A stretch of DNA of 51,660 nt from Candidatus Mediterraneibacter vanvlietii (GTDB lineage: Bacteria; Bacillota; Clostridia; Lachnospirales; Lachnospiraceae): assembly GCA_019113645.1 (NCBI GenBank), contig DXGZ01000135.1, positions 1 through 51,660 on the forward strand. The letters run 5' to 3'. The notes beneath the pieces were generated by a model that was not told where the DNA came from, did not search any database, and saw only the letters and a program-made list of their open reading frames with translations. Both the position numbers and the translations under genes were made by a program. Within the stretch, counting starts at the first letter, position 1. Every line of letters begins with the position of its first letter. Shown here in pieces: positions 8,672 through 29,919 of the stretch.

Positions 8672-8884
8672 CGCACGGACGGGCACATAAAAATTAAATG
8701 TTGTTCTCTTATGCCTGCTCACACTTCACCGATTTCCTGTTTCATGCTATTTCAGACGTCTTCTTTCCTTTTCTGTTTTTTACAGAATAGCCAATAAGTT
8801 TTTCAGTATATACCAACGGGTTTTGGTTTCAGTGCAGAATGCCGGTGGTCTTTTCATTTCACAGAAATGCAGTTTCCTTTGAAA

Positions 8885-8919
8885 TAAAAAAGCCAGACTG
8901 GATTATCCTCCAATCTGGC
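8885..8919 (-). terminator. Terminator at the end of the glycyl radical enzyme operon
   Basis: GCCAGATTGGA pairs with TCCAGTCTGGC, followed by TTTTTTA on the minus strand. The activase stop codon (8903) is inside the loop. Confidence 0.85.
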
Positions 8920-9697
8920 ACTCGACTCCTGATATTTCCACTGCCGTCCTGAGCAGCATTTCCATTTTTTCATTTGTGGGCGGCTCGACATCTCCCATCA
9001 GGTAAGGCCGTCCCAGCCCCTTATACTTATCCTGTCCCAGTCTGTGATAAGGGAGCAGGTGCATTCTTCTTACATTTTTCAGGCTGCGCGTATATGCGGC
9101 GATCGCCCCGATTTCCTCCGGCGTATCGTTAAATCCCGGAACCACCGGCACACGGATGCTCAGCTCAGTCATTCCGGAATCTGCTATCCTCCTGGCATTC
9201 TCAAGCATCAGCTCATTGCGTTTTCCTGTAAACGCCTCGTGTTTCTCCGGATTCATATGCTTTATGTCCAGAAGATACTGATCCAGATATGGAAGAATCT
9301 GCTCGATCGCCGAATACTGCGCATGCCCCATACTTTCCAGTGCCGTATTGATGCCGGCTTCCTGTGCCGCACGCAGCAGATCCCGTGCGAATTCCGGCTG
9401 GCACAGGCTCTCGCCTCCTGAGAGAGTCAGTCCCCCTCCGGTCCGGCGGTAATAAGTCCTGTCCTTCTCAACCGTGCGCATCACTTCCTCAACAGTAACG
9501 TCTCTTCCAATGATCTTCTCCTCCCCCTGCACTTTCATCGTCTGTATTGCGAATTCCTGAGATTCCGGGTTACAGCACCACCGGCATCTGAGCACACATC
9601 CCTTCAGGAAAACAATGGTTCTTATCCCGTTTCCATCATGTATGGAATACCTCTGTATGTCGAAAATCCGCACTGTTGTCTTCAAATAATCATCCAT
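8903..9697 (-). CDS. Glycyl radical enzyme activase (radical SAM), short form
   Basis: The 264-residue radical SAM protein should abstract hydrogen from the partner's C-terminal glycine using a [4Fe-4S] cluster and SAM. The cluster motif is CVLRCRWC (Cys 34, 38, 41), followed by NPESQ and LSGGESL. Activases of glycerol dehydratase, CutC and HPAD types usually carry a cysteine-rich ferredoxin insert (two extra clusters) right after NPESQ. Here the sequence passes straight to IGRDVTVEEVM with no cysteines, so the insert is absent and the protein is close to PflA size. The start at 9697 has GGAGG 11 nt upstream; a longer in-frame extension has no good site. It lies 91 nt after the enzyme gene. 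Confidence 0.9.
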   Translation of the reverse strand: MDDYLKTTVRIFDIQRYSIHDGNGIRTIVFLKGCVLRCRWCCNPESQEFAIQTMKVQGEEKIIGRDVTVEEVMRTVEKDRTYYRRTGGGLTLSGGESLCQPEFARDLLRAAQEAGINTALESMGHAQYSAIEQILPYLDQYLLDIKHMNPEKHEAFTGKRNELMLENARRIADSGMTELSIRVPVVPGFNDTPEEIGAIAAYTRSLKNVRRMHLLPYHRLGQDKYKGLGRPYLMGDVEPPTNEKMEMLLRTAVEISGVECQIGG

Positions 9698-9788
9698 CTT
9701 TTTGTCATCCTCCATCCTTGTCTTTCTGCTTCGTTCCCGTATATATCCCTCGTCTGGAAACGGGAACCATCTGTATTGCAGCTTATCT

Positions 9789-12320
9789 TCAGAATCCCTG
9801 CTCTGTTCTCCGAATAATATCGTCCTGCAGAGATTTGGACAGAGTGGTAAAGAGCGCGCTGTATCCCGCCACGCGCACAACAAGATGTCTGTACTGATCC
9901 GGATGCTTCTGAGCGTCGAGAAGGGTTTCCCTGCTCACAACATTAAACTGCATGTGGCTTCCCTTTTGGTCAAAATAGGACCGGATCAAACCGACGAAAT
10001 TCTCAAGACCTCGCCTGCCGCTCAGCGCTGACGGATGGAATTTCTGATTAAACAGAGTTCCGTTGGACGCTATAAAATGATCCAGTTTTGACACTGAGTT
10101 TGCCGCCGCAGTGGGACCGCTTACATCTCTTCCCGCTGCCGGGGAAACACCGTCCGCCACAGGCTGATGCGCAAGGCGTCCGTCCGGAGTCGCCCCGGTC
10201 TGAGCTCCCAGAGGTACGTTGGCCGATACCGGATAGAGACCTGCCTGGAAACTCCCGCCCCGCGGATTTCTGTAATTCTGAAGCGGCTTTGTGTAAGTGT
10301 ATGCCACATCCCTTGCAAATGCATCTACCTCCGGGATGTCATTTCCGAACTTCGGCACTTCTTCAATCAGCTTCAGAATGTACTCGCCCTTTCTCTTCAC
10401 CTGTTCGGAATCCAGCATGGATACCACGGTATTTAATATAGCGGTGATCTCTTTCCTGTCGATCTTCTTGCCTTCCCGCCGCAGCCCTTCTGCGATCTCC
10501 GCCGTCATCCCGGCAATGTCCTCCTGGGGAAGCCCCTTTCCGAAATTGGTTGACAGCGCTTCTTTCAGCTCTTTCATCGTAATCTTTTTTTCATCATAGA
10601 CCAGCGTCTTCACCGCATACAGAGAATCCGCCATGTTGGCGATGCCGAATCCCTGGGGACCGGTAAAATTATAGACAGCACCGCCCTCCTGTACCGTCTT
10701 TCCCCGGCTGATACAGTCGTCCACCATGGATGACAGGAAGGGAAGCGGACACCTCTCCGCATGGGCCATATCGATGGCGTTATCCGCATTTACAAGCAGC
10801 TCGATGGCATAGTTCATCTGTGTTTTATACGCCTCATAGAACTCCTCAAACGTCTTCATTTTCTCCACATCACCGGTACGCGGCCCGATCTGCTCTCCCT
10901 TATCTGTGCCGTTTCCGAACACCAGCTCCAGCGGCCTGCACATATTGAAAAATGCAGCGTCATGCCACCCTTCTGTCTTCCCGGCTTTCTGCGGCTCCAC
11001 ACAGCCGATGATATTGTATTCCCTCGCGTCCTGCAGGGTAAGTCCTCTGCTGACCAGTGAAGGTATGATTACCTCGTCATTGTAGTAAGCGGGAAGACCG
11101 ATTCCTGTTCTCGTCAGTTCCGCCGCGCGGATCAGAAGCTCATGAGGGGATCCGTTCCACACCCGGATCGAAAGAGAAGGCTGGGGCAGAAAGACATGTT
11201 TGGATGCATCGATACACATGAAGGACAGATCATTCGTCACATCGATTCCTTCTCCATCCTGTCCGCCCACAATCAGGTTCTGGAACAGGCTGTATCCCGC
11301 GAATCCCTCAGCAGATGCCGCATCCCTGCATTTATTCAGATCATTTAACTTCACCCAGATACAGTCCAGCAGCTCCTGGGCGAATTCCCGTGTCATTGCG
11401 CCGCTGTCAATATCTTTCCTGTAATAAGGATACATATACTGGTCAAATCTTCCCGGCGAGATCGAGTGTCCGCTGGACTCAATCTGCAGAAGCTGCTGTA
11501 CGAACCAGAAAGACTGACATGCCTCATAGAAATTCTCCGCTCCTTTTTCCGGCACATTCGCACAGTTCTGCGCAATTCTCAGAAGCTCCTTCTTTCTCTC
11601 CATATCCGCGCATGCCTCAGCTTCTTCAAGCGCCAGCTGCGCATAGCGTTTCGCATACCGGACAGCTGCGTCACAGCTTAGCATCACTGCCTCCAGGAAA
11701 CGGGATTTTCTCTGATAATTGCCATCGCCAGGATGCATGTTTTCCAGTTCTTTTTCCGCTTTCTCCCTTATCCCCGAGAATCCGATTGCCAGAACCTCCT
11801 CGTATTTTACGGTCACATGCCCTACCCCATTATAGAAATAGTTGCCCGGCGTAAAAATATTATGTTCGATTGCCTTTAATGTCTCAGGCTCCATATACGC
11901 GGTAGCAAGTTCGCTTGTCGTCCTGCCCTTCCAGTACGCGTCCGCTTCCTTTAACTCCCGCTTCGTCCTGTCGGAAATATAGAACGGATCCGCGCTTCTC
12001 TCCGCCACGGTATCGAATTCTTCTTCAAGCCATTCATAGGAAAATTCAGGATAGGTCTGACAGCCCCTCGGCGCGATCGTGGTACTTCCTACAATCAGCT
12101 CATGATCCCGGATCACGATCGGTATATTCTCCAGAATATGCTGAAACGCCTTGGCCCGCCGGATTACCATCGGCTGGTTCTCCGTCTCTTTGTAAGACTC
12201 TGTGATCAGAACCGCCCTGGCTGATTCGATCTCCGGCATTTTTGCATAAAGCGCTTCCACCAGTTTCGGAATCCGGTCAGATTTTCTGACCTCCTGTCCG
12301 TCATAAACATACTTTCCCAT
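9789..12320 (-). CDS. Glycyl radical enzyme, B12-independent glycerol/1,2-propanediol dehydratase-like
   Basis: The 843-residue PFL-like barrel has a glycine loop RVAGYSALF near residue 818 and an active-site GCVEPQ (Cys ~439, Glu ~441). Residues that bind the diol in Clostridium butyricum DhaB1 (His164, His281, Asp447, from memory) appear as GVGHV, SGHSIS and GWHD, the Asp being 14 residues after the Cys exactly as in DhaB1. The cytosolic enzyme should dehydrate glycerol to 3-hydroxypropionaldehyde or propanediol to propanal. It is ~56 residues longer than DhaB1; the excess is a charged helical insert at about 592-648. There is no microcompartment or aldehyde dehydrogenase gene nearby. Other substrates, such as hydroxyproline, cannot be excluded. 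A B12 riboswitch precedes it. Confidence 0.85.
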   Translation of the reverse strand: MGKYVYDGQEVRKSDRIPKLVEALYAKMPEIESARAVLITESYKETENQPMVIRRAKAFQHILENIPIVIRDHELIVGSTTIAPRGCQTYPEFSYEWLEEEFDTVAERSADPFYISDRTKRELKEADAYWKGRTTSELATAYMEPETLKAIEHNIFTPGNYFYNGVGHVTVKYEEVLAIGFSGIREKAEKELENMHPGDGNYQRKSRFLEAVMLSCDAAVRYAKRYAQLALEEAEACADMERKKELLRIAQNCANVPEKGAENFYEACQSFWFVQQLLQIESSGHSISPGRFDQYMYPYYRKDIDSGAMTREFAQELLDCIWVKLNDLNKCRDAASAEGFAGYSLFQNLIVGGQDGEGIDVTNDLSFMCIDASKHVFLPQPSLSIRVWNGSPHELLIRAAELTRTGIGLPAYYNDEVIIPSLVSRGLTLQDAREYNIIGCVEPQKAGKTEGWHDAAFFNMCRPLELVFGNGTDKGEQIGPRTGDVEKMKTFEEFYEAYKTQMNYAIELLVNADNAIDMAHAERCPLPFLSSMVDDCISRGKTVQEGGAVYNFTGPQGFGIANMADSLYAVKTLVYDEKKITMKELKEALSTNFGKGLPQEDIAGMTAEIAEGLRREGKKIDRKEITAILNTVVSMLDSEQVKRKGEYILKLIEEVPKFGNDIPEVDAFARDVAYTYTKPLQNYRNPRGGSFQAGLYPVSANVPLGAQTGATPDGRLAHQPVADGVSPAAGRDVSGPTAAANSVSKLDHFIASNGTLFNQKFHPSALSGRRGLENFVGLIRSYFDQKGSHMQFNVVSRETLLDAQKHPDQYRHLVVRVAGYSALFTTLSKSLQDDIIRRTEQGF

Positions 12321-12442
12321 TTGTTTCTTCTCCTTCCATCAATCAGTTTTTGATGGATGAAGTTCTTCGACAGCATTGTCATCCGGGGATTCTTCATCCT
12401 GCCGGCAGGACCGTCCTCATCGGCTTTCCTGTTCCGACAGAA

Positions 12443-12468
12443 CAAAAAAACCTGCTTGAAAAAGCAGG
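12443..12468 (-). terminator. Riboswitch expression-platform terminator
   Basis: CCTGCTT-TTTC-AAGCAGG followed by seven T residues on the minus strand, 120 nt before the glycyl radical enzyme start. Its 3' arm CAAGCAGGT is perfectly complementary to ACCTGCTTG in the riboswitch B12 box (12561-12553). Confidence 0.85.
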
Positions 12469-12480
12469 CATCAGAAAAGA

Positions 12481-12511
12481 TATATGGACAGGTAATGCAC
12501 CTGACCCATAT
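12481..12511 (-). other. Leader hairpin between riboswitch and terminator
   Basis: ATATGG...TCAGGT pairs with ACCTG...CCATAT around GCATT. It probably positions the competing arms of the switch. Confidence 0.5.
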
Positions 12512-12543
12512 CTGCAGATGGTTGCTTTACTCGGAAGCTTCAT

Positions 12544-12722
12544 CCTATTTGTCAAGCAGGTTTCCTGGCTTACCTATCATCATCTGTCCCCGCCTTCTCA
12601 CAGATTTCTCTGCAATGGCTTTTTCAGGGGAAGACTCCTGGATCACAGTGACCGGATCGCCGGAGATTCTCACTCCGTTCCCTTTTAAAATTCATCCCGA
12701 AGGAATTCTTCACTCGACAAAC
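12544..12722 (-). ncRNA. Cobalamin (B12) riboswitch
   Basis: On the minus strand the conserved core is visible. GGGAACGGAGTGAGAATCTC (from 12682) matches the GGGAA..GGUG.GAAUCC block. GATCCGGTCACTGTGATCC matches the GCCACUG block. AAGCCAGGAAACCTGC (12571-12556) is the B12 box. The outer P1 stem is TTTGTC (12721-12716) with GACAAA (12554-12549). Downstream is an intrinsic terminator whose 3' arm can pair with the B12-box strand, so ligand binding should favour termination. It lies between a promoter and the glycyl radical enzyme gene, on the same strand. Confidence 0.88.
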
Positions 12723-12749
12723 TATTTTATTGAATCATCTCTATCTAAT

Positions 12750-12778
12750 AATTTATCACACACGTTCCCAAAAGACAA
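12750..12778 (-). promoter_or_regulatory. Promoter of the riboswitch-glycyl radical enzyme operon
   Basis: TTGTCT (12778-12773), 17 nt, TAAATT (12755-12750), placed about 25 nt before the riboswitch P1 stem. It separates this unit from the upstream aldo/keto reductase. Confidence 0.55.
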
Positions 12779-12806
12779 CCACAAAGCGCTTAAGAAACAT
12801 AGATTG

Positions 12807-12833
12807 CAGCAGTTTCATAGCTCAACTGCTGCA
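12807..12833. repeat. Short palindrome related to the dispersed element family
   Basis: GCAGCAGTT and AACTGCTGC are perfect 9-bp inverted arms around 9 nt, just past the aldo/keto reductase stop. The flanks share only GATT, so a target duplication is not clear. It may also act as a transcript-end stem. Confidence 0.4.
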
Positions 12834-12841
12834 GCCGATTG

Positions 12842-13831
12842 TCAGCGGTTATTCTCCGCCATCACGCCAACCAGCTTATGAGGAACATAGGCTTCTTCAA
12901 GATAAGTAATCTCCTCCTCCGGAAGCACAAGATCCACTGACTTCACTGCGCCTTCGATGTGATGCATCTTCGTCGCGCCGACCACCGGCGCTGTCACCCT
13001 GGTCAGAAGCCACGCCAGAGAGACCTCTGTCATCGTCACCTGATGCCGTTCCGCCAGCTCTGCCACGCGGCTGATAATTACATTGTCCTGCTCCTCTGTG
13101 GCGTCATATTTTGACTTTGCGTAAGCATCCTCTTCCAGACGTTTTGAGACTTCGCCCGGATGTCTGGAGAGCCGCCCGCTCGCCAGTGCGCTGTAAGGCG
13201 TCATGGCAATGTTATCCTCCCTGCACAGCGGCGCCATCTCCCGCTCTTCCTCCCGGAAGATCAGGTTGTAATGTCCCTGTACAGATACGAATTTTGCAAA
13301 TCCTTCTTTATCCGCAAGTGCGTTTGCTTTTGCGAGCTGCCATGCGTAGCAGTTCGAGATGCCGATATATCTTGCCTTTCCTGCTCTTACAATGCGGTTC
13401 AGTCCGTCCATGATATCGTAAAGAGGCGTCTGATAGTCCCACATATGATAAATATACAGATCCACATAATCCATGCCCAGGTGTTCCAGGCTCAGGTTGA
13501 TCATGTTCTCGATATGCTGCTGCCCGGTGACGCCCGCCTCGATCTCCGTCTGCGTTCTCGGCAGAAACTTCGTTGCCACAATGACATCTTCTCTCTTTGC
13601 AAAGTCCCGCAGCGCCCGTCCGACATACTGCTCACTCGTTCCGCCCTGGTATGCGATTGCCGTGTCATAGAAATTCACGCCCAGCTCCAGTCCGCGCTTT
13701 ATGATCTCACGGGAATGCTCCTCGTCCAGTGTCCATCTGTGCTGTCCGCTTTGCGCATCGCCAAATCCCATACATCCCATACAGATGCGCGATACATTCA
13801 GATCAGAATTGCCAAGTTTTATATATTTCAT
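12842..13831 (-). CDS. Aldo/keto reductase
   Basis: The 329-residue NAD(P)H-dependent cytosolic reductase has the tetrad Asp 56, Tyr 61, Lys 88 and His 129 in NFYDTAIAYQ, VIVATKF and LYIYHMWD. The GISNCYAWQ and PVVGATKM segments are typical of the AKR11/YdhF-like bacterial group. Substrate is unknown. It lies upstream of the glycyl radical enzyme operon on the same strand but is separated by a promoter. A role in reducing aldehydes is possible but unproven. AGGAGG precedes the ATG. Confidence 0.9.
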   Translation of the reverse strand: MKYIKLGNSDLNVSRICMGCMGFGDAQSGQHRWTLDEEHSREIIKRGLELGVNFYDTAIAYQGGTSEQYVGRALRDFAKREDVIVATKFLPRTQTEIEAGVTGQQHIENMINLSLEHLGMDYVDLYIYHMWDYQTPLYDIMDGLNRIVRAGKARYIGISNCYAWQLAKANALADKEGFAKFVSVQGHYNLIFREEEREMAPLCREDNIAMTPYSALASGRLSRHPGEVSKRLEEDAYAKSKYDATEEQDNVIISRVAELAERHQVTMTEVSLAWLLTRVTAPVVGATKMHHIEGAVKSVDLVLPEEEITYLEEAYVPHKLVGVMAENNR

Positions 13832-20549: not shown

Positions 20550-22010
20550 ATGAAACAGCCAAATATTGTTCTGATTATGACAGACCAGCTTCGGGCCGAC
20601 TGCCTTGGATACGCAGGACACCCGGATGTAAAAACACCTTATCTGGATACGCTTGCTTCAAAGGGAGTTGTTTTTGACCGCGCCTACAGCGCATGCCCCA
20701 GCTGCATTGCCGCCCGGGCAGCTCTGCATACAGGCCGTGAGCAGAGCCGCCACGGACGTGTAGGATATGAGGACGGTCTGCCCTGGAACTATCATCACAC
20801 AATGGCGGAAGAGCTCTCTGCCGCCGGATATTACACCCAGTGCGTTGGGAAAATGCATGTACATCCGCTGCGAAATTATCTCGGATTCCACAATGTAGAT
20901 CTTCATGACGGCTATCTGCACTGCGCAAGATATGGCAGCGTTCCCTACAGCGAATCCCAGTTTGTAGCTGATGACTATTTTTACTGGCTGAAAGAGGAAC
21001 TGGGCGTCAGCACGGATGTAACCGAAACCGGTCTGGACTGCAACAGTTATCTCGCCCGTCCCTGGACGCGCGAAGAAAGATATCATCCGACCAACTGGGT
21101 AACGGATCGCAGCCTTGACTTTCTTCGCCGCCGCGATCCCCGGAAGCCATTCTTTCTGATGGCTTCTTACCTGCGTCCTCATCCGCCGTTTGACGCCCCG
21201 CAGCACTATTTCGACCTGTACAGTGCCAAAGATTTGAGGCCGCCTTTTGTAGGCACATGGGAAACTGAAGAATACCTGAAGCGTGACGGCAGAATTTTCG
21301 ACTCCAAAACCGGACCGATTGACCCGGAGCTTGCCCGCCAGGCACAAATTGGATACTACGCCTGCATCACACACCTGGACCACCAGATCGGGCGGCTGAT
21401 TATGGCGCTGATCGAACAGGAAATTTATGATGACACAGTAATACTCTTTACAGCGGACCATGGAGAGGAACTGTGTGATCACCATATGTTCCGCAAATCA
21501 CGCCCCTATGAGGGAAGCTGTCATATTCCTCTGATTATTTCAGCGGGGAGAAATGTACTTCCCGGGCTTTCCTCCGGTTCCGTCTGCCACAGCGTTGCGG
21601 AATTAAGAGATATCATGCCCACACTCCTTGACATGGCAGGAGCTCCTGTCCCTGATACTGTAGATGGCACAAGTCTTCTTCCTCTGGTGGAAGCCCCCGG
21701 CCAGCAGCTTCGTTCATGGCTCCATGGCGAACACTCCTACGGGGAATTTTCCAACCACTGGATCGTGACAGAGACAGATAAATATATCTGGCATTCTCAG
21801 GATGGCCGGGAGCAGTATTTTAATCTGTCCGAGGACCCCCATGAGCTGCAGGATCTGATTCATGACCAAAACGCTCAGCAGCGAATCGAAGAGCTTCGGC
21901 AGCTTCTGATCCAGTCACTGGACGGAAGACCGGAAGGTTTCACTGACGGCCGGAAACTGATTGCCGGACGTCCCTACCCGCCTTCCCTTCCCTCGGCCAT
22001 ACTTCCGTAA
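20550..22010 (+). CDS. Cytoplasmic sulfatase (Cys-type, formylglycine-dependent)
   Basis: This 486-residue alkaline-phosphatase-fold enzyme hydrolyses sulfate esters. The maturation motif is CIAARAALHTGR with the modified cysteine at residue 52, a C-x-A-x-R form of the usual C-x-P-x-R. Metal ligands lie in IMTDQLRAD and FTADHGEELCDH. In anaerobes the cysteine is oxidised by a radical SAM maturase (anSME); none is in the window. There is no signal peptide, so substrates must be imported, which fits the adjacent sugar importer and GH112 genes. Choline or glycan sulfates are possible substrates. The start follows AGGAGG. Confidence 0.88.
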   Translation: MKQPNIVLIMTDQLRADCLGYAGHPDVKTPYLDTLASKGVVFDRAYSACPSCIAARAALHTGREQSRHGRVGYEDGLPWNYHHTMAEELSAAGYYTQCVGKMHVHPLRNYLGFHNVDLHDGYLHCARYGSVPYSESQFVADDYFYWLKEELGVSTDVTETGLDCNSYLARPWTREERYHPTNWVTDRSLDFLRRRDPRKPFFLMASYLRPHPPFDAPQHYFDLYSAKDLRPPFVGTWETEEYLKRDGRIFDSKTGPIDPELARQAQIGYYACITHLDHQIGRLIMALIEQEIYDDTVILFTADHGEELCDHHMFRKSRPYEGSCHIPLIISAGRNVLPGLSSGSVCHSVAELRDIMPTLLDMAGAPVPDTVDGTSLLPLVEAPGQQLRSWLHGEHSYGEFSNHWIVTETDKYIWHSQDGREQYFNLSEDPHELQDLIHDQNAQQRIEELRQLLIQSLDGRPEGFTDGRKLIAGRPYPPSLPSAILP

Positions 22011-27692: not shown

Positions 27693-29861
27693 TCAGATCT
27701 CATACCAGCGAATCTCGTTCGCCTCAAGATCCAGACTGAAACTGCTGCCGTCCCCGCGATATATCGTTGTGCTCTGAGGCTCATATGTGTTATTAACCAC
27801 ACAGTATTTTCCATTCTTCACATAAGCGTGAACCTCTACATTATAATTTGTGCTGAACCATCTGTGAAGGTGCTCCTCCTCATGAGCGGCCCAGATAATT
27901 GACCGGTACAGGATACGGCTGTTTTCAAAACTGTACGGCAGACCGCTGATATAGACGCAGCGTCCTTTTCCAAAGTCACTGACCGCCATCTGCACCTCTC
28001 TGTCGCGCTGAACAAGAATCTTTGCGCAGTCAAGGGCGTACATGTTCTTCTTGCCCTCACCGAAGTCGATCTCGCCTTTACAGTCTTCTTTAATAAAATG
28101 ATCATGCTCTTCCCAGTTGTATTTATCTACATTCAGTGTGAATCCTGTCTCTTTTTCCACTCCCATCACAGTGGCAAGCTGAAGGAAGTGTCCCTGATAC
28201 TGATGTCCTGCCGGCTCTCCCACGCCGATAAAACCGCCTCCGTTATAGATGAACTTTTTCACAGTGCTTACGATTACTTCATCTGTCCAGTTTTCCCCTC
28301 CGGTATATGCCGTGTCCGCGTCTCCCACGTTGAGAATAACATCAACATCATCCAGAACAGACGGATTCTTCCTGATATCATCAAAACTTATGAACACCAC
28401 GTCAAACGGAGCTCCGCTGAGCGCCTCGATCACTCCCGCGTAAGAATAATTCTGTTTATAGTAGATTGCATGGTGAACCATATGGTTTCCCCAGGCCCGC
28501 ATTCTTCCCCAGCAGTTGAGGACCGCAACTTTTTTGATACAATACGGGGTTGTCCCTTTGATATTCTCATAAAGCGTCCTGAACTCGTCACATACGCTCT
28601 CCACATAATTCACAAATTCCGGGAACTGAAGAGCAAGTTTCAGATAACCGCCGTATCCGATACGGTCAATCGGCTTCCTCAGAATCGCTCTTCTCGCCGT
28701 CACCCAGTTCACCTTCGCTTCTTTTACCGGGTCTCCTCCCTCATGGAACACGTCCGGGAAGAAATACGGAAGCAGCCTTCCTTCCGTATATTTTACCCCT
28801 TCAATGTCACTGATCAGACGAAGAGTGGCTCCGTTTCCGACACTTCCAACAACCGCATCCAGCCCGATGGATTTGAATTCGTCCATAAACGGTTCCATGC
28901 CGATCCAGTGATCCCCCAGAAACATCATGGCTTCTTTTCCACATTCGTGAGTAATATCCACCATCTCTTTCGCGAGCTTTGCCACTTCTCTTCTCTGGAA
29001 ATTCTGAAAATCACGAAATTCTTTTGATGGTATCCGATAGGTATTGTTCATATATCCCTGATCAATAATATATTCCGGGCGGAATTTATATCCTGCTTCC
29101 TTTTCAAACTGTTCCAGAATATACGGGCTTACCGAAGCGGAATATCCATACCAGTCCACATATTTTTCTCTTGCAAGTTCGTCAAAAATCAAAGTAAACT
29201 GATGGAAAAATGTCGTATACCGAAGTACATCCACATGGGGATTATCTGCAATAAACTTCCGCAGACGCTCCATGGAATACTCGTGTGTCTTCGGCTGACG
29301 TACGTCAAAGGTAATCTGCTTCTCAAAATTCGTCCATCCGTTTGTCACCGCGTTGTACATATGCACCGGATCCCACATGATATACGCAAGAAAACTCACC
29401 GTATAATCATGAAACTCCCTTGCTCCGCTGATCTTTACGTTTCCGCTTTCACTGTCATACGTCCACTGTGATACAGGCACAACATCCCCTGTTGTACGGT
29501 CTATCACTTCCCACCATCTCGCAATATCATCATGATCGTTCACTTTAAGCATGTCCGGATAGAGATGGTTCATCAGATGAATCTCCAGTTCCGGAGCCAC
29601 GGCAGTATAGAACGGCGTCATGATATACATCTGCTGAATCTCATCCGGATTCGCCTTTGCCCACGCATTGTCTTTTCTTGTTGTATAATATGTGGAATAC
29701 ACCCTGGCATCCACACTTTTAAGTTCCTCCGGATAATCTGTTCCATCACAGTCTCGGATTGCGTCTGCCCCCCATCTGTCCAGAAGTTCCAGTGTCTCAG
29801 GCACCACATCCACATCCGTCGGGATCGTCACTCTTCCTTTTGTATGTTCCTTCACCGTCAT
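27693..29861 (-). CDS. GH112 galacto-N-biose/lacto-N-biose (or galactosyl-rhamnose) phosphorylase
   Basis: This ~722-residue cytosolic enzyme has GH112 signatures throughout: GRVTIPTD, LLDRWGADAIRDCDGTDYP, MTPFYTA, FLAYIMWDPVHMYN, GKEAMMFLGDHWIGMEP, TEGRLLPYFFPDVFHEG and GGGFIGVGEPAG. Members phosphorolyse Gal-beta-1,3-GalNAc or -GlcNAc to galactose-1-phosphate and HexNAc, or Gal-beta-1,4-rhamnose. Specificity within the family is not certain here; the nearby ABC importer, ROK kinase and sulfatase favour mucin or milk glycan use. ATG 29861 is used, but GTG 29855 has better ribosome-site spacing. ATG 29894 is excluded by the promoter. Confidence 0.92.
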   Translation of the reverse strand: MTVKEHTKGRVTIPTDVDVVPETLELLDRWGADAIRDCDGTDYPEELKSVDARVYSTYYTTRKDNAWAKANPDEIQQMYIMTPFYTAVAPELEIHLMNHLYPDMLKVNDHDDIARWWEVIDRTTGDVVPVSQWTYDSESGNVKISGAREFHDYTVSFLAYIMWDPVHMYNAVTNGWTNFEKQITFDVRQPKTHEYSMERLRKFIADNPHVDVLRYTTFFHQFTLIFDELAREKYVDWYGYSASVSPYILEQFEKEAGYKFRPEYIIDQGYMNNTYRIPSKEFRDFQNFQRREVAKLAKEMVDITHECGKEAMMFLGDHWIGMEPFMDEFKSIGLDAVVGSVGNGATLRLISDIEGVKYTEGRLLPYFFPDVFHEGGDPVKEAKVNWVTARRAILRKPIDRIGYGGYLKLALQFPEFVNYVESVCDEFRTLYENIKGTTPYCIKKVAVLNCWGRMRAWGNHMVHHAIYYKQNYSYAGVIEALSGAPFDVVFISFDDIRKNPSVLDDVDVILNVGDADTAYTGGENWTDEVIVSTVKKFIYNGGGFIGVGEPAGHQYQGHFLQLATVMGVEKETGFTLNVDKYNWEEHDHFIKEDCKGEIDFGEGKKNMYALDCAKILVQRDREVQMAVSDFGKGRCVYISGLPYSFENSRILYRSIIWAAHEEEHLHRWFSTNYNVEVHAYVKNGKYCVVNNTYEPQSTTIYRGDGSSFSLDLEANEIRWYEI

Positions 29862-29889
29862 TCTCCTCTCTTTACGCCGATTTTTATCT

Positions 29890-29919
29890 ATCATAATTGA
29901 AAATCTCGGAGAGCGTCAA
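29890..29919 (-). promoter_or_regulatory. Promoter of the GH112 gene
   Basis: TTGACG (29919-29914), 18 nt, TATGAT (29895-29890). Transcription would start near 29883, so translation must begin at 29861 or later. The rest of 29920-30074 is AT-rich with no gene. Confidence 0.65.

Follow-up and report, generated by a model that had tools for sequence, protein, structure and literature searches.

In Listeria and Enterococcus, the B12-dependent route is promoted by B12, by way of a regulator or a small RNA. In their bacterial microcompartment (BMC) pathways (eut, pocR), as at the locus described here, a cobalamin riboswitch bears on whether the pathway runs (compare PMC8547011, partial text); here, however, B12 would directly turn off a B12-free enzyme. 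In general, isozymes of B12-dependent enzymes are established targets of cobalamin riboswitches (PMC3766115, partial text). For metE, the B12-independent methionine synthase that stands opposite metH, the logic is the same, in that cobalamin represses a B12-independent isozyme (PMC9600662, partial text), but the target here is a glycyl radical enzyme (GRE) with its activase, in a catabolic pathway linked to a BMC.

The closest described organelle is the GRM5/Pvm BMC of R. inulinivorans and C. phytofermentans, with which our organism shares GRE and activase, class II aldolase, AldDH, PduL, PduS and shell proteins (PMC6325248; PMC6620236, partial text). The difference is that here GRE and activase lie outside the operon, under a riboswitch, and that a separate place in the genome encodes PduCDE, which has a similar N-terminal peptide. 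GRM3 and PDU-BMC clusters never co-occur in a genome to the knowledge of the authors of one paper, who called the two strategies mutually exclusive (PMC5311937, partial text). Further, 28 Clostridiales genomes with both dehydratases are on record (PMC9403272, partial text), in a paper whose main text does not contain the word "riboswitch". For the fucose/rhamnose BMC it was argued that propanediol dehydratase is not used, on the basis that 3 of 13 genomes lack PduCD and that no more than 6 have it co-localized (PMC6620236, partial text).

The main text of PMC3766115 contains none of the terms glycyl, propanediol, pduC and glycerol dehydratase. In titles, abstract openings and selected passages of the open-access literature, we found no described cobalamin riboswitch before a glycyl radical dehydratase. 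What is known is thus the sensor and the logic; what appears to be new is the target enzyme class, for which no described case was found.

The window, that is the whole stretch of 51,660 nucleotides analysed here, carries a cobalamin riboswitch aptamer on its minus strand (12538..12732), upstream of the GRE gene. The Rfam model RF00174 is matched at full length by cmscan, over all 189 model positions (1-189; 12732-12538 on the minus strand), with 106 bits against a gathering score of 31.5 and an E-value of 1.3e-25. The sequence-only reading, which had predicted both this riboswitch and its Rfam match, is borne out, but the 5' limit that it gave, 12722, falls short, as the aptamer extends 10 nt farther 5', to 12732. 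In the whole window RF00174 is the only Rfam family above its gathering score, and the scan gave no tandem SAM riboswitch there. A permissive scan of 12250-12900 added three sub-threshold matches to unrelated families.

The alignment to the RF00174 consensus shows the conserved core and the B12 box AAGCCAGGAAACCTGC (12556..12571, minus strand), which can also be recognized in the sequence itself. Our own covariance model, R1, matches 12555-12683 with 113.3 bits, the window aptamer being among the 30 sequences of that model. A promoter had also been claimed but was not confirmed; between 8500 and 13000, no minus-strand consensus match lies above 11887.

An intrinsic terminator follows on the minus strand (12443..12469), where an 8-pair stem (12469-12450) runs into a T tract, between aptamer and GRE as had been claimed. 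The antiterminator would be built from a left arm AAACCTGCTTGA (12552..12563), which overlaps the B12 box, and a right arm TCAAGCAGGTTT (12448..12459), which includes the 3' arm of the terminator, both on the minus strand. The two arms (12563-12552 and 12459-12448) are complementary at 12 of 12 positions, and when the downstream stretch was shuffled (300 mononucleotide shuffles) this was never equalled. The complementarity between box and terminator arm had been noticed before, at a length of 9 nt; it is in fact perfect over 12. The same pairing appears in the minimum-energy fold: when 12560-12438 is folded alone, B12 box and terminator 3' arm form a helix, and a second helix sequesters the terminator 5' arm (-40.8 kcal/mol, as good in 0 of 200 shuffles, z -3.95).

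Complement and fold together couple the expression platform to the B12 box, and judged from them the platform is predicted to be an antiterminator that competes with the aptamer for the box. Two other genomes of the genus, G027 and G008, retain this platform in their leaders, with a complement of 10 nt in each (reached in 0 of 300 shuffles for G027 and 5 of 300 for G008). In G008 a T-A pair between B12 box and terminator arm has become C-G, a compensatory change. The minimum-energy fold of the isolated platform is the antiterminator in G008; in G027 it is the terminator and not the antiterminator, which we count against our main reading.

Downstream on the same strand, AAGGAG (12330..12335) is the probable ribosome-binding site of the GRE gene (9789..12320), whose 843-residue product has PFL-like and Gly_radical domains. 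The radical SAM activase comes next (8903..9715); it has a Radical_SAM domain and scores over the cut-off of TIGR02494, the glycyl-radical activating protein family. Its translation starts at 9715 or 9697, within a listed open reading frame that opens upstream, at 9883. A strong terminator (8892..8919, minus strand; an 11-pair stem with a T run) closes the unit after the activase, and the riboswitch should therefore control two genes.

The GRE contains IIGCVEPQ from residue 437 and RVAGYSALF from residue 816, which we take to be the motifs of the catalytic Cys and of the radical Gly. Among solved structures the best match to the GRE is 5i2a, which is labelled diol dehydratase and is presumably the Roseburia inulinivorans enzyme (1364 bits, residues 6-842 on 4-840, end to end). 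The Roseburia inulinivorans enzyme has been crystallized, and its identity as a 1,2-propanediol dehydratase demonstrated (PMC5311937, partial text). The second-best solved relative, the C. butyricum glycerol dehydratase 1r8w, reaches 1058 bits in two stretches that flank an insertion in the GRE: the 50 residues 595-644 are absent from the C. butyricum enzyme and aligned in 5i2a. An inter-domain stretch of GRM3 enzymes has been proposed as an encapsulation peptide (PMC5311937, partial text).

The match to 5i2a supports the predicted identity of the GRE as a propanediol dehydratase, of the diol dehydratase type that the sequence-only reading had inferred. That reading also held that a B12-dependent counterpart exists only for diol dehydration, which is too narrow: ribonucleotide reductases, with B12 in class II and a glycyl radical in class III, are another such pair. 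The assignment of propanediol as substrate is therefore based on the homology to 5i2a and not on the uniqueness of a B12-dependent counterpart.

The genomic site of the unit is variable. In G033 the same flanks, an aldo-keto reductase and a BHMT-MTHFR gene, enclose a different gene, an open frame of about 300 codons. When the window is compared with G033 (L362:298-1432), similarity stops at window position 12840 and restarts at 8673, so that riboswitch, GRE and activase behave as one insert in a variable slot (window 8674-12839). G033 was considered as a clean empty site and rejected, since its flanks hold another gene. In the other 20 genomes that carry the BHMT-MTHFR gene, no aldo-keto reductase was seen within the flank of at most 1500 bases. 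Elsewhere in the window, a sulfatase and a lacto-N-biose phosphorylase (20550-22010 and 27693-29894) suggest growth on host glycans, from which fucose, and through it propanediol, could be derived.

The own genome (G000; 3.2 Mb in 144 contigs, 98% complete) also encodes the B12-dependent counterpart. Its one PF02286 gene, PduC, scores 1020 bits on contig C88 and is followed by the medium and small dehydratase subunits and a reactivase. In G027 a cobalamin adenosyltransferase also follows PduCDE and reactivase; the corresponding place in G000 lies beyond the contig end. The pair of isozymes, one B12-dependent and one B12-free, that had been supposed before any search of the genome for pduCDE is thus encoded there.

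A second cobalamin riboswitch in the own genome (41.8 bits) precedes genes with CbiM, CbiN, CbiQ, ABC ATPase, CbiK and CbiD domains and a tetrapyrrole methylase. As these are cobalamin synthesis genes, the cell regulates cobalamin synthesis itself. Between cbiK and cbiD, inside the cobalamin synthesis operon, lies an AhpC/TSA-family, peroxiredoxin-like gene (L005:12045-12497).

Among 58 genomes of the genus, a GRE of at least 77% identity occurs in seven. The riboswitch stands directly before it in three (G000, G027 and G008), and at the GRE of the other four (G012, G010, G019 and G031) R1 gave no riboswitch match. In all four of the latter, GRE and activase head a BMC operon with class II aldolase, AldDH, zinc alcohol dehydrogenase, BMC shell proteins, PduL, and EutN-type and PduS-type proteins, not every gene being seen in each genome. 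G000 and G008 have the BMC operon, along with the divergent PHP-domain gene next to it, and GRE and activase are absent from the operon; in G027 the operon head, on a separate contig, likewise lacks both. In G008 about 27 kb separate the GRE from the operon; in G000 and G027 the two lie on different contigs.

Consequently, the operon in these three genomes encodes no dehydratase, and the GRE is found elsewhere, behind a riboswitch. The rest of the GRM5/Pvm gene set (shell, AldDH, PduL, aldolase) is present on C81 (= L315), where the genes were assigned from their likeness to those of L177/L178, for which the Pfam domains had been read; what sets G000, G008 and G027 apart from GRM5/Pvm is that GRE and activase do not lie within the operon. 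In a tree of 32 GRE proteins (the seven of the genus and 25 of the best 80 loci) these three form one clade with 100/100 support. PduC is found in all three riboswitch-bearing genomes and in two of the other four. The latter two, G012 and G019, have GRE and PduCDE with no riboswitch before the GRE, and are counted against our main reading.

The co-occurrence of PduC with the BMC operon bears on whether PduCDE serves the same organelle. As a marker of the operon we used its AldDH; the operon or its head was read in 11 of the 33 marker-positive genomes. AldDH and PduC each occur in 33 of the 58 genomes, and 30 have the two together (both, AldDH only, PduC only, neither: 30/3/3/22; p 7e-10, with phylogeny and draft quality ignored). 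In the GRE-negative genomes of the genus the corresponding table is 25/1/3/22. PduC occurs without AldDH in G014, G023 and G033, which are 81, 94 and 75% complete. AldDH occurs without PduC in G010 and G031, both of which have the GRE, and in G054, which has neither and is counted against our main reading. In total, 32 of the 33 AldDH-positive genomes have PduC or GRE. The contig of PduC differs from that of AldDH in the 30 genomes that have both, except in G012, where about 1.7 Mb lie between them. As to G054, its BMC operon (L357; G054:C87) lies in a genome that is 90% complete and where no PduC or close GRE was found; the assembly may be incomplete, or this may be a BMC without a known dehydratase.

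Further, the N-terminus of PduD resembles that of the BMC AldDH and that of an HbpS-like protein (0 of 500 shuffles as good in each case), and less so those of the alcohol dehydrogenase (14/500) and PduL (51/500). The controls PduC, PduE and aldolase showed no such N-terminal likeness (at least 100/500 each). It should be noted that short matches can arise by chance, as the unrelated pair PduG and alcohol dehydrogenase scored 1/500. The insertion of the GRE showed no likeness to the AldDH peptide beyond shuffles (191/500). Hydrophobic moments of the putative encapsulation peptides were not distinct from shuffles, and peptide similarity was used instead.

How common is the linkage? We took the best 80 of at least 585 confirmed GRE relatives in the contig collection and three further, overlapping sets: the seven of the genus, 75 places from a sample of 397 family genomes (74 of them with a GRE relative), and 56 places from 391 class genomes (53 of them with one). 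Among these sets the riboswitch stands directly before the GRE in four genomes only: G000, G027, G008 and Clostridium methylpentosum. For this count the DNA upstream of each GRE was taken, and contigs that end near the gene (for example L054, L071, G099 and G414) are uninformative. The linkage is rare, and three of the four genomes are one clade, which we count against our main reading.

The model R1 was built from 30 riboswitches because a B12-box pattern misses the variant boxes seen in the genus, and was run on 213 loci and then on the window and 11 more. For L174, L175, L081, L047, L048, L057 and L060, as for the window, a match was partly built in, because the model contains these sequences or, from other loci, the same places. 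Beyond the model members, R1 matched L033, L039 and L005, and weakly L052 (E 0.035, about 4 kb upstream), which is not counted.

A B12-box scan restricted to 900 nt upstream of the GRE missed six riboswitches that lie 1.2-4.5 kb upstream in Blautia-type loci (B12 boxes at L033 4328, L039 1462, L047 1817, L048 4256, L057 2931 and L060 3567). Their leader is much like that of the window, and they stand upstream of GRE-BMC operons, with the gene of a small, cysteine-rich PF04071 protein next to them. As GRE riboswitches they were rejected, since the gene behind each of them shares 73-100% identity with the PF04071 gene of L047. In L047 there is no other notable gene between the PF04071 gene and the GRE, but by eye a terminator-like hairpin. 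The riboswitch of the GRE may derive from such leaders. In G017 (L123:1501-1695) a cobalamin riboswitch with a box end like that of the window precedes the gene of a Peripla_BP_2 substrate-binding protein.

The gene neighbourhood of the best 80 of at least 585 loci includes at least one gene of the BMC set in 68; six are stand-alone and six too short. A riboswitch is found at 4 of 9 stand-alone GREs and at none of 71 operon GREs (p 8e-5, phylogeny ignored and the duplicate L015 dropped). Its restriction to stand-alone GREs fits our reading, because a switch at the operon head would also silence the shell and AldDH. Five stand-alone GREs (L017, L041, L043, L080 and L083) gave no riboswitch match, and the genome of L017 has PduC.

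PduC is present in 4 of 4 GRE genomes with the riboswitch. Of those without it, 16 of 73 have PduC in the family sample, which excludes the own genome; in a second sample 11 of 38 have it (39 of the best 80 loci, that is the nearest 25 and others of interest). By a Fisher test the association has a p-value of 0.012 when counted per genome and of 0.10, which is not significant, when counted per origin; it is suggestive only.

In C. methylpentosum DSM 5476 (L081) RF00174 scores 124.6 bits and the match ends 153 nt before the likely ATG of the GRE. PduC lies here within a BMC cluster (aldolase, pduC, D, E, G, AldDH, shells), and the riboswitch-led GRE lies outside it. The location of this PduC inside a fucose/rhamnose BMC cluster was noted previously (PMC6620236, partial text), in an article whose main text does not contain the word "riboswitch"; the BMC with PduCDE is confirmed by our analysis, and what is added here is the riboswitch-led GRE outside the cluster. 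In the GRE tree C. methylpentosum stands apart from the clade of the genus, and well-supported branches force at least two changes of the riboswitch label. Its leader has no terminator T run, and the best complement is 6 nt, a length reached in 152 of 300 shuffles, so the switching mechanism there would differ from that in the window.

Aptamer, complementary arms, enzyme homology, PduCDE and the GRE-less BMC operon all come from the computation, as does the same arrangement in two members of the genus. With these in hand we hold it probable, with good confidence, that a terminating riboswitch represses GRE and activase, that GRE and PduCDE are exchanged as isozymes, and that the unit has been separated from the BMC operon. 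That cobalamin is bound, and that it represses, is what we infer. With enough cobalamin the B12 box would be held in the aptamer, the terminator would form and the GRE would be off, and the AdoCbl-dependent PduCDE would dehydrate 1,2-propanediol. With too little, the box would pair with the terminator 3' arm, transcription would read through and the GRE would take over. The unit would have been separated from the fucose/rhamnose-type BMC operon that the GRE heads in relatives. Shell, AldDH and PduL would for that reason be outside this B12 control, and the dehydratase alone would be exchanged.

An exchange of the signature enzyme of one organelle is probable. That both enzymes are encapsulated in one BMC, where the riboswitch decides whether PduCDE or GRE is the cargo of the lumen, and that this logic has arisen twice, is a fuller claim to which we give an even chance; the second origin is suggested because the riboswitch-led GRE of C. 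methylpentosum stands beside a BMC operon that contains PduCDE. A simple isozyme switch, with GRE and PduCDE cytosolic or in different compartments, is the less likely but still serious alternative. In its favour, both enzymes are encoded outside the BMC operon in the own genome, and the GRE insertion has no clear likeness to the AldDH peptide. However, the N-terminal peptide of PduD is AldDH-like, PduC tracks the operon AldDH across the genus, no dehydratase is encoded within the BMC operon, and the GRE retains the 50-residue insertion, an inter-domain stretch of the kind proposed as an encapsulation peptide in GRM3 enzymes (PMC5311937, partial text).

The riboswitch could also be a relic, or act in the other direction, if it once stood before a B12-related gene and came to lie before the GRE by rearrangement. 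Look-alike leaders, recognized by eye from the box end GGAAACCTGCTT and a conserved CTTCCG-GTAAAG stretch, do stand before the PF04071 gene at six Blautia-type loci, as does a look-alike riboswitch before the Peripla_BP_2 gene of G017, and the slot that holds the GRE unit varies in content, with conserved genes on either side. We nevertheless regard this as very improbable, given that aptamer, terminator and complement are retained in three genomes, with a compensatory change, and that the linkage recurs in C. methylpentosum, a second lineage whose leader is different. Hardly more probable is glycerol, in place of propanediol, as the substrate of the GRE: its second-best solved relative is the C. 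butyricum glycerol dehydratase, but 5i2a scores higher (1364 vs 1058 bits) and aligns end to end, including 595-644, and 68 of the best 80 relatives adjoin BMC or aldolase/AldDH genes.

The proposed exchange between PduCDE and a riboswitch-led GRE bears on the debate about the fucose/rhamnose BMC, and the element in the window is a concrete candidate for the switch between the two dehydratases. As PduC or GRE is present in 32 of 33 AldDH genomes and PduC is on another contig or far off in 30 of 30, the enzyme can be encoded in trans, and a trans-encoded dehydratase makes the dispute raised in PMC6620236 directly testable. If the reading of one BMC with an exchangeable signature enzyme is true, the organelle is refitted according to the vitamin supply. 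This would link the B12 supply of the gut to the conversion of fucose and rhamnose to propionate.
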